A model generated the notes under the pieces. It did not search any database. It was not told the origin of the DNA and worked only from the letters and a program-made list of their open reading frames with translations. A stretch of DNA of 64,000 nt. It comes from Thermoflavimicrobium daqui. GTDB taxonomy: Bacteria; Bacillota; Bacilli; Thermoactinomycetales; Thermoactinomycetaceae. Shown in pieces: positions 9,631-12,932 of the stretch; within the stretch, counting starts at the first letter, position 1, and every line of letters begins with the position of its first letter. The stretch spans positions 124,001 through 188,000 of the forward strand of contig NZ_KZ845667.1 in assembly GCF_003313465.1 (NCBI RefSeq), in the 5' to 3' direction. The translations under genes and the position numbers were made by a program.

Positions 9631-10638
9631 CTAGTATTTCTTAGTGTTAGCATAGGTATCAGGGATATTTAAAATTTCTACTTCATTCTCAATTTCATAG
9701 CGCAGTTTCTCTATACGATGTTTTTGAGCTTTTGTTAATTTTTCCATATCTAAGGATTGATAACAAATCACATATTGAATCACATGATTTAAGCGGAGAA
9801 AGTCTGGTAGATATTTAAACCATATCGGATCAAGTTGGTTCTCTCTACAGTAACCTATAAGGAATGGGTCCAAGAAACAGCGTGGGAACTCTTTTACCCA
9901 AGGCTTAAGCGGGTGCATATTGACAAAGTAGAGAATCGTAGCAATATCATTGATATACCAATTATAAGTCACATCGTCAAAGTCAAACACAGTGATAATC
10001 CCATTTTCTACAAAAAAGTTTTTATGATGAAAATCACCATGAATTAATCCATATGAATTACGATCTTTTGGTAATGAAGCAATACGATCCATCAACTTTT
10101 CTACCTGTTCAAACACCTTGGTCTGGGAGTTTGGGACATATTTTGCAATATCAAGCTGGTCTTCTTCATTCCATTCCTGGCGCTTGAATGCGGAGTTAGG
10201 TAATTTATACTCTTTGGATATAGCGTGGATTTTACCTAATGTTTGTCCCCAAGTTTCGAATAAGTGATGATTCCATTCAGCTTCTGTCGGAAGTTTTCCT
10301 TTGGCTTTCTCATAAACGATTACAAGAAAATAGGAGTCAGTTTGACCAGTTGGGATGATCTCGACCCAATTACCGTAACTGGAAGGAAGTGCCCTCGCTA
10401 CGTTAGCACCTCGATCAATTAAGAAGTTCAGAAAATCTAATTCGCCCATAATATAGTCTTTCGTTCTACGTAAGCTATGAGTAATCTTCATTATGCAAGG
10501 TTTTTGTTGGTAGACAAATTCATAGACATGACTTTCGAAGCCACCTAAGCTTATCAAATCCTTAGGTTGAACTCCATAACATTGAGCAGCCATTTGTAAA
10601 ATGTTCTCATTAAACTGCTTTTGTATTTCTAATATCAT
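9631..10638 (-). CDS. Phosphotransferase of the APH / CotS-like kinase fold
   Basis: About 335 residues with the kinase-fold C-lobe motifs LIHGDFHHKNFFV (catalytic Asp) and VFDFDDVTYNWYIND (metal Asp). The N-lobe has CIMKITHS with the ATP-contacting Lys. The layout is close to homoserine-kinase-type and spore-coat CotS-type members rather than known resistance enzymes. I took the ATG at 10638, 6 bases after GGAGG; a longer frame would begin at a TTG inside that site. A Nudix gene ends only 23 bases upstream, so the two are probably one transcript. Confidence 0.85.
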   Translation of the reverse strand: MILEIQKQFNENILQMAAQCYGVQPKDLISLGGFESHVYEFVYQQKPCIMKITHSLRRTKDYIMGELDFLNFLIDRGANVARALPSSYGNWVEIIPTGQTDSYFLVIVYEKAKGKLPTEAEWNHHLFETWGQTLGKIHAISKEYKLPNSAFKRQEWNEEDQLDIAKYVPNSQTKVFEQVEKLMDRIASLPKDRNSYGLIHGDFHHKNFFVENGIITVFDFDDVTYNWYINDIATILYFVNMHPLKPWVKEFPRCFLDPFLIGYCRENQLDPIWFKYLPDFLRLNHVIQYVICYQSLDMEKLTKAQKHRIEKLRYEIENEVEILNIPDTYANTKKY

Positions 10639-10661: not shown

Positions 10662-11114
10662 CTATTCATTTTTTTCTAAAAAATTTAAGACGTGTTTAAT
10701 TGCAATATGTTGATCACCTGCTAATTGGGATACAGTATGAAGCTCTTCCCAATAATAATTGAATTTAAGATCACTGTCTTTTCCAGATGATTTAACGGTA
10801 TATAACCATTCATCTTCTTTTGTGCTAGTTGTAACAATAAAAAAATGTCTCTCTTGAAATTCTTTTTTTATATCATGATAATATATTTCGGATAAGATTT
10901 CTGTTAATACGGTTACATCTTCTAAACCTGTTTCTTCCTTGATTTCACGTAATAAAGCAGCAGATAAATCATAATCATAATCCTCGACTGTTCCACCAGG
11001 TATTTGGATACCTGCATCAGGAATATCCTGGTGTTCGAATACTAATAATTCCCATTTTCGAATGTTTTTTCTCACTATATAACCTAAAACCTTTTTTGAA
11101 AAATGGTTATCTAT
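10662..11114 (-). CDS. Nudix hydrolase with probable AUA start codon
   Basis: A Nudix hydrolase; these cleave nucleoside-diphosphate-linked substrates. The Nudix box reads GGTVEDYDYDLSAALLREIK and continues EETGL. The REIKEETG core that binds metal is intact, while the usual Glu of the GX5E part is Asp. The first ordinary start is a GTG at 11075, but the frame is open further upstream. It adds KKVLGYIV, the expected first strand of the fold. A perfect AGGAGG (11123-11128) lies 8 bases before an ATA at 11112-11114, and no ATG/GTG/TTG occurs between it and the GTG. I therefore place the start at ATA, or read it as a mutated ATG. Confidence 0.75.
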   Translation of the reverse strand: MDNHFSKKVLGYIVRKNIRKWELLVFEHQDIPDAGIQIPGGTVEDYDYDLSAALLREIKEETGLEDVTVLTEILSEIYYHDIKKEFQERHFFIVTTSTKEDEWLYTVKSSGKDSDLKFNYYWEELHTVSQLAGDQHIAIKHVLNFLEKNE

Positions 11115-11158
11115 ATTCTATTCCTCCTAAATGTGAATGTATCATATATCCATTAAGA

Positions 11159-11398
11159 TTAATCCATTTTATCATACCAGCTTTTTAAATTGCTATTCCA
11201 TACAAAACGGAGATCATGTAATAAAACATCAAAATCAAGGACGATATTATAAAATGATATCAAAGGGTCTATTTCTTTAATAAAAAATAGTAAGAACTCT
11301 TTGATATAATTATTGATAGAGGTTGCCTTCTTAATCAGCCCCTCATTGTTTTTGAACTCACTCTCGTTGTAGTTTGGCGCAAAAGCCGTTCGCTTCAA
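11159..11398 (-). CDS. Hypothetical 79-residue ORF, possibly a gene remnant
   Basis: The frame encodes a mostly helical peptide (starts MKRTAFAPNYNE, ends KSWYDKMD) with a TTG start and no ribosome binding site. The open frame continues about six codons upstream to a stop without giving a better start. The absence of translation signals suggests the C-terminal remainder of a degraded gene. I do not recognise the family. It lies upstream of the Nudix gene on the same strand. Confidence 0.3.
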   Translation of the reverse strand: MKRTAFAPNYNESEFKNNEGLIKKATSINNYIKEFLLFFIKEIDPLISFYNIVLDFDVLLHDLRFVWNSNLKSWYDKMD

Positions 11399-11504
11399 AA
11401 ACGATTTGCTCTCGTTCTAAAAATGATCTAAGTTTTGGCTCGGGTTATGCAACATGTTGTAATAAATATAAAACTTATATAACAACAAACAAAAGGAGAA
11501 ACGT

Positions 11505-12932
11505 ATGGAAAGCATTCTTTCGATGAGTGCAACAATTTTAGCTCAAAAAATCGCCTCGCAAGAAGTTACCTCGTTACAGGCAACGGAAACCTATATTGCA
11601 CATATTCAGCGCTTTAATCCTAAATTAAACTTAATGGTAGAAGAACGTTTTCATAGTGCAAGAGAAGAAGCAAAAGAGAAAGATCAGATGATCCAAAACG
11701 GTCGAGCAAAGGGGAAGTTATTTGGTGTTCCCGTTAGTGTAAAAGAATCATTTTTTGTTAAAGGAATGAAGACGACAAGCGGATTACCTTCTCGGAAAAA
11801 CTGTATTGATTCAGAAGATGCTCAGGTGATTAAGTATTTAAAAGAAGAGGGAGCCATAATTTTAGGCAAGACAAATACACCTACTTTCTGTTTTTGCCAA
11901 GAGACAGATAATACAGTTTATGGTCGAAGTAACAATCCTTGGGATATAACGAGAACGGTAGGAGGTTCTAGCGGTGGGGAGGCAGCATTAATCGCTGTTG
12001 GTGGAGCAGCTGTGGGGATAGGTCAGGATATTGGCGGTTCCATTCGTTTTCCGGCGCATTTTAATGGGGTCATTGGTTTTAAGTCTGGAGATAAACAAGT
12101 TTCAGATCACGGGTGCTATCCTCCCTTTACTCATCCGTTTCAAATAAGAATGCTTGGTATTGGTGCATTCGCCAAAAGTGTAGCGGATGCTCAGCTCATC
12201 CATGAAATTATCAGTGAACTACCGATGAATGCACAAGACTTATCTCGATTTACCTATATTATTCCAAAGCCTCATTCAGCTTTACCCATTCAACATAAAA
12301 CAGCTGAAACGATTGAAAATATTTTTCAATTTTTTTCCAAACAGGGAACTGTTATTAGAGAACAACCTCCATTCTTACTAGAGTCTGCGCTCTGGTGGCA
12401 GCTAATTATGTCCGTAGATGGCGCACAAGGCTTAATCGACATTGCTGCTAATAGCAAAATAAGCGTGATTATTAAGGAATTTTTACGAGCTCAATTGGGA
12501 ATGAACCATACACTCCATCCATTTCTCACTTGGGCTATTTTAGGAGCACGAATGTTCCAGCCAAGTCCTAAGCAGTGGAAGGAACTAGAGAAAGAATTAG
12601 CCCAAGCGAGTGCAGAAGTAGATGTATTTCTTAGGAAGCGTATTTTAATATTACCTGTATACCATAGCCCAGCTGGGCACCACGGAAAAGTATATCAGGA
12701 AATTTTCTCTATCCGTAAAACATTTCGTAGATATATGCCATATATTTCTTATGCTAACACTTTTGGTCTTCCTTCGCTGTCTATACCCGTTAGCGAAGAT
12801 CCCAATGGGATGCCGATTGGTGTTCAACTTATTACATCCGCTGGTCAAGAGCACGCTTTATTTATAGCAGGAGAACAGCTTGAAAAGAGTTTCCGGGGAT
12901 ATCAACGATGTACGTATTATGACCATGAATAA
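11505..12932 (+). CDS. Amidase-signature family amidase
   Basis: A 475-residue amidase of the GatA/FAAH signature family, which hydrolyses a carboxamide. The Ser-cisSer-Lys triad is visible: Lys in PVSVKESF, cis-Ser in VGGSSGGEAA and the nucleophile in GQDIGGSIRFPA. The C-terminal LPSLSIPV...GMPIGVQL is standard. No gatB or gatC is nearby and the sequence is divergent, so it is a stand-alone amidase rather than the tRNA amidotransferase subunit. The ribosome binding site is AAAGGAG. An oxidoreductase gene starts 42 bases after it and is probably co-transcribed. Confidence 0.85.
   Translation: MESILSMSATILAQKIASQEVTSLQATETYIAHIQRFNPKLNLMVEERFHSAREEAKEKDQMIQNGRAKGKLFGVPVSVKESFFVKGMKTTSGLPSRKNCIDSEDAQVIKYLKEEGAIILGKTNTPTFCFCQETDNTVYGRSNNPWDITRTVGGSSGGEAALIAVGGAAVGIGQDIGGSIRFPAHFNGVIGFKSGDKQVSDHGCYPPFTHPFQIRMLGIGAFAKSVADAQLIHEIISELPMNAQDLSRFTYIIPKPHSALPIQHKTAETIENIFQFFSKQGTVIREQPPFLLESALWWQLIMSVDGAQGLIDIAANSKISVIIKEFLRAQLGMNHTLHPFLTWAILGARMFQPSPKQWKELEKELAQASAEVDVFLRKRILILPVYHSPAGHHGKVYQEIFSIRKTFRRYMPYISYANTFGLPSLSIPVSEDPNGMPIGVQLITSAGQEHALFIAGEQLEKSFRGYQRCTYYDHE

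Follow-up and report, generated by a model that had tools for sequence, protein, structure and literature searches.

A Nudix hydrolase gene of Thermoflavimicrobium daqui has a perfect Shine-Dalgarno (SD) sequence followed, in the position of the start codon, by ATA, which raises the question of where, and whether, its translation begins. The gene lies in the window, by which we mean the whole stretch of 64,000 nucleotides that was analysed, and runs on its minus strand (left unstated in the earlier note on this DNA). The features discussed below are:

11123..11128, minus strand: Shine-Dalgarno sequence AGGAGG (from the sequence; it lies at the same distance before the ATG of the nearest relative, L023)
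11112..11114, minus strand: ATA codon in the start-codon position (from the sequence; it aligns without a gap over the ATG of L023)
10662..11114, minus strand: Nudix hydrolase coding frame, 150 codons plus stop (PF00293, a match in its own genome and a predicted model)
11073..11075, minus strand: GTG, with no other canonical in-frame start among codons 1–60; it cuts predicted strand 1 (alignment, model and sequence)
11107..11145, minus strand: 12-codon out-of-frame ORF (MIHSHLGGIEYR) through the SD and the ATA (sequence only)
9631..10638, minus strand: APH-fold phosphotransferase gene with its own GGAGG, a possible co-transcribed partner (sequence and domain match)

Read from 11128, the minus strand runs AGGAGG AATAGAAT ATA GAT AAC CAT TTT TCA AAA AAG GTT TTA GGT TAT ATA GTG. 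The SD (11128–11123) is thus separated from the ATA (11114–11112) by the 8-nt spacer AATAGAAT, exactly as the earlier note had described, and the Nudix codons counted from the ATA are IDNHFSKKVLGYIVRKN. An in-frame TAG just before the ATA (11120–11118) limits the start of the frame to codons after it; from the ATA, 150 residues follow up to the stop, TAG at 10664–10662. With an anti-SD tail that we take to be of the Bacillus type, the predicted duplex energy was -10.2 kcal/mol for the ATA context and -6.9 kcal/mol for that of the GTG. We saw no RNA structure hiding the SD (the fold z-score was 0.35, nothing unusual). Promoter-like sites were about as frequent as expected (9 versus 9.4), the same sequence search found no terminators, and Rfam gave one sub-threshold match only, which we took as chance.

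The protein belongs to the Nudix hydrolases: it matched the Pfam NUDIX model PF00293 at 49.1 bits (cut-off 21.1), and one match in its own genome was found at E <= 0.001. Within the Nudix box, whose motif we take to be GX5EX7REUXEEXGU, the core REIKEETGL (residues 56–64) is intact, and R56, E57, E60, E61 and G63 are invariant in our alignment A2. The earlier Glu of the box (column 48, nearly invariant) is Tyr in this protein and Cys in L023, and one extra residue follows GGTVE compared with most relatives. An AF2 model built on a shallow six-row alignment, the other five rows being 20–31% identical, reached a mean pLDDT of 70 and a pTM of 0.68; its top Foldseek matches were RppH and Ap4A hydrolases (E about 1e-6, TM about 0.6–0.7), and the Nudix fold is present in this predicted structure. 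Searching PDB sequences with the protein alone gave no match at 0.001, and the profile of A2 gave general Nudix matches. The NCBIfam equivalog models of the RppH and YtkD subfamilies scored far below their cut-offs (27.2 versus 116, 25.2 versus 118 and 20.5 versus 154.4 bits), so we do not name a substrate. Fold, REUXEEXGU core and length are alike in the protein and in the PF00293 hydrolases, L023 being the nearest found; the difference lies in the start codon.

Where the N-terminus belongs can be judged from conservation. An alignment of 32 sequences shows K8, V9, Y12 and I13 as near-invariant, and each of them lies before the GTG, which is codon 14 counted from the ATA, and the AF2 model places a strand at residues 6–17, of which a GTG start would drop residues 6–13. 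This bears out the claim that the first beta strand goes with the ATA start and is cut by the GTG, and supports placing the N-terminus at the ATA.

The earlier note had proposed comparing the same codon in close relatives. The nearest one, L023, comes from a different family of the same class and is 70% identical over residues 5–149 (68% in the 32-sequence alignment). It reads AGGAGG, exactly 8 nt, and then ATG, and this ATG falls over the ATA without a gap both in MAFFT and in the protein alignment. A canonical start lies upstream of the conserved strand in all 49 tallied relatives; the tally sought ATG, GTG and TTG only, finding one each time, and left out two of the 51 relatives listed, a broken copy (L060) and L003, which has TTG. 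None of the compared relatives (51 listed) showed ATA at the start position; with ATG in L023 and a canonical start available in 49 of 49, a near-cognate start is not kept among them. Closer relatives were sought in 61 relatives, 398 genomes of the class, 7 of the genus and 397 of the order of genome G236, 42 of T. daqui's own order, 41 from the family of G236, 12 from that of G608 and 398 from the phylum, in searches that overlap and are in part even draws from larger groups; none of them held a relative closer than L023. A scan of genome contigs found 12 loci, none above 44% in its best segment, 28 plasmid records were all below 60% identity, and phages and viral contigs had no matches to the Nudix gene.

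The broken copy, L060 (about 1490–2120), is a pseudogene from the same genus as L023. It has two in-frame TGA codons, its later parts lie in other frames and are separated by unrelated-looking sequence, and MAFFT aligns an ATC on the ATG of L023. Given this pseudogene, the family is dispensable in some genomes.

Because L023 has ATG and all 49 tallied relatives have a canonical start, ATA is best taken as the derived state, the ATG having most likely been lost in this lineage, as judged from the aligned sequences. The spacing, still 8 nt, agrees with a G-to-A change. Loss of a single G, which aligns ATAGAT-AACCAT of the window with ATAGATGAATCAT of L023 and implies a longer spacer, fits about equally well. 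In shuffling tests against L023 the ungapped match had P of about 0.11 and the gapped match about 0.10; both alignments are weak, and neither establishes a single DNA history for the ATA. Between the SD and the conserved AAGGTT the DNA has diverged too far for ATA and ATG to be proven homologous base for base. The earlier note had offered a choice between non-canonical initiation and a recent ATG-to-ATA mutation. Loss of ATG stands as the likely origin in view of L023, but the two options are not exclusive, since a mutated start may still be weakly translated, and a lost G fits the DNA about as well as the substitution does.

We then asked how exceptional the arrangement is within the genome, using the window and a further 20 segments of 20 kb each, together 464 kb of the 3.87 Mb genome, or about 12%. 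In this sample 23 open stretches of 100 or more codons have their upstream stop beside an AGGAGG. ATG, GTG or TTG follows the AGGAGG at 4–13 nt in 20 of the 23 and at 14 or 18 nt in two more; the Nudix gene is the only one without a canonical start until 47 nt. Comparison samples were uniformly canonical (22/22 in 400 kb of G236, 6/6 in 179 kb of G002). The ATA behind AGGAGG is therefore more than chance. On both strands of the 464 kb AGGAGG occurs 217 times: 73 copies are followed at 4–12 nt by a canonical start opening an ORF of 50 codons or more, 22 by a near-cognate codon only, and 122 by neither. Eight of the 22, besides or overlapping the Nudix gene, were inspected: in six of them (four ATA, two ATC) the codon belonged to the interior of a longer frame, and in the remaining pair, L099 and L091, TTG/GTG or ATG followed a few codons on.

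General use of near-cognate starts in this genome was considered and rejected. Of 178 filtered genes of the 464 kb, 64 were without a canonical start having an SD of at least 5 bases, and within these 64 a strong SD preceded 3 of 249 near-cognate codons versus 34 of 2132 other codons, which is no excess; the corresponding counts were 2/171 versus 26/2012 in G236 and 2/93 versus 12/718 in G002. The Nudix gene itself is absent from this survey and from a preceding one, an overlap or codon-usage filter being suspected, and is included in the AGGAGG-centred counts. Its ATA is an isolated case in this sample. Two other open frames of the same genome, L083 3426–4041 (+), methyltransferase-like by eye, and L097 5769–6294 (+), membrane-protein-like by eye, also have no canonical start preceded by a good SD ahead of where their N-terminus seems to lie.

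Near-cognate initiation very likely operates in this organism, as its infC suggests. In that gene (L113) ATC occupies the start position; a strong SD precedes it and no canonical codon intervenes, which makes the use of AUN starts in this organism very likely. The infC of four relatives of the family has the same arrangement with ATC; in these and in T. daqui the SD is of the GGAGGT type, or of the AGAGGT type in G001. In G236 the codon behind the strong SD is ATT (L112 and L114–L117 are the further infC loci compared). The near-cognate start of infC is tied to IF3 autoregulation. The Nudix gene resembles these genes in having an AUN codon behind a strong SD, at a good distance and without a better start. 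It differs in that the infC start is conserved across genera while the Nudix ATA is seen in one genome only.

Examples of AUA starts and of natural ATG-to-ATA changes have already been described in the related Staphylococcus and Listeria. According to PMC13009471, S. aureus infC, ccpN and citZ use AUA starts; AUA and AUU starts work at about 10% of AUG, and the ccpN AUA at up to 30% in rich medium. These are Firmicutes genes like ours, and for infC and ccpN that paper describes an extended Shine-Dalgarno; they differ in that their starts come from Ribo-Ret mapping or reporter tests, whereas the Nudix start is a predicted one. In Listeria, natural ATG-to-ATA changes in rsbW leave an ATA translated at a reduced but real level, as PMC13068326 reports. 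The likeness is that ATA stands in place of ATG (in rsbW, in a few strains) in a gene otherwise kept; the difference is that the rsbW change raised SigB activity and that reporters gave reduced translation (PMC13068326). The earlier note called non-canonical initiation normally rare and tightly discriminated; on the evidence of these genes, AUA initiation is less exceptional than that implied.

We favour, with a probability of roughly 0.55, that the ancestral ATG was lost and that ribosomes still initiate at the AUA to give the full-length Nudix protein. With the ATG lost in this lineage, ATA would have come to occupy the start position; the perfect AGGAGG would still bring in ribosomes, which would initiate there with initiator tRNA, by analogy perhaps at a tenth of the ATG rate, and the product would be a full-length protein beginning with Met. 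Initiation at the AUA, its rate and the importance of the protein to the cell are what we infer here. Low-level initiation on the strong SD is favoured because the frame looks constrained: it is intact, and its pN/pS versus L023 is 0.31, a value that averages both lineages and is insensitive to recent loss of function. Departures from conserved columns are equal in the window protein and L023 (15 and 15 of 54 columns at 70% conservation, 10 and 10 of 44 at 80%, 4 and 4 of 31 at 90%). This comparison suggests that the gene was functional through most of its history, and a recent loss would still be compatible with it.

Such a loss is the reading to be weighed most seriously against weak initiation. 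The gene may be an early pseudogene whose start was lost recently, giving no useful translation, with the frame intact through little elapsed time; we consider this possible but doubtful. In its favour, ATA is present in no compared relative, and the copy in the genus of L023 is itself broken, with its ATC in the same place. The gene also fits an accessory, perhaps acquired, one: of two further congeneric species examined, one lacks it and the other has only a 45% match over residues 6–76. Against silencing, the strong SD is kept, the constrained frame has no other defect, and AUA is measurably active in related Firmicutes. On this analysis weak AUA initiation appears more likely than full silencing.

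An assembly or base-calling error, the true genome having ATG, either where ATA is read or through a G dropped from ATAGATGAACC, is unlikely. The assembly is a draft of 40 contigs, a single base would account for everything, and the gapped alignment to L023 described above is a natural, though not significant, fit; yet the gene bears no other sign of error, and the lost-G version would put the start 12 nt from the SD, versus 8 in L023. We think it quite improbable that the AUA is instead a selected, working throttle on a horizontally acquired Nudix enzyme, and perhaps on the downstream kinase too. The ATG would then have been exchanged for ATA and the perfect SD kept, holding expression at a low, IF3- or growth-dependent level, as a recent, lineage-specific counterpart of infC and ccpN. 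The non-canonical start of ccpN is described as strongly conserved (PMC13009471), whereas L023, nearest to the Nudix gene, has ATG.

Translation from the GTG at 11075, giving a 137-residue protein, is very unlikely. This codon is the sole canonical in-frame start near the 5' end, is reported by a mechanical ORF list and has a counterpart in the TTG of L061, L062 and L002, but starting there would forfeit the near-invariant residues and most of the predicted strand described above, and the tallied relatives, these three included (each with an ATG upstream of its TTG), have a canonical start further upstream. The statement that the GTG has no ribosome binding site was nearly right: only a weak, vestigial AGGT lies about 7 nt upstream. 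Finally, coupled initiation, in which ribosomes on the short ORF at 11145–11107 would stop just past the ATA and re-initiate there, is barely credible: that ORF does span the SD and the ATA, its TAA (11109–11107) beginning two bases beyond the ATA, but no SD is visible upstream of its ATG, and at 12 codons it may be chance.

Around the gene, the phosphotransferase ATG (10638) lies 23 bases after the Nudix stop, and because this gene has its own GGAGG, the kinase need not suffer if the Nudix frame is poorly translated. On the upstream side, a divergent gene, which we take to be amidase-like from its sequence, starts at 11505. Between the two, window positions 11304–11478 hold one copy of a dispersed repeat of roughly 150 bp with 39 further matches in the same genome (70–87% identity, some partial; 40 of 115 candidates scored) and three in the sister species G002; it has no Rfam family and a predicted long imperfect fold on either strand.

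Neither a weak AUA start nor silencing alters the understanding of initiation. In practice, a gene caller limited to ATG, GTG and TTG would start this gene wrongly at the GTG and cut strand 1. If the gene is silenced, it would offer a snapshot of start-codon loss, a first step of decay. Comparing the ATG and the ATA that relatives carry naturally could serve to measure how far a strong SD rescues initiation.
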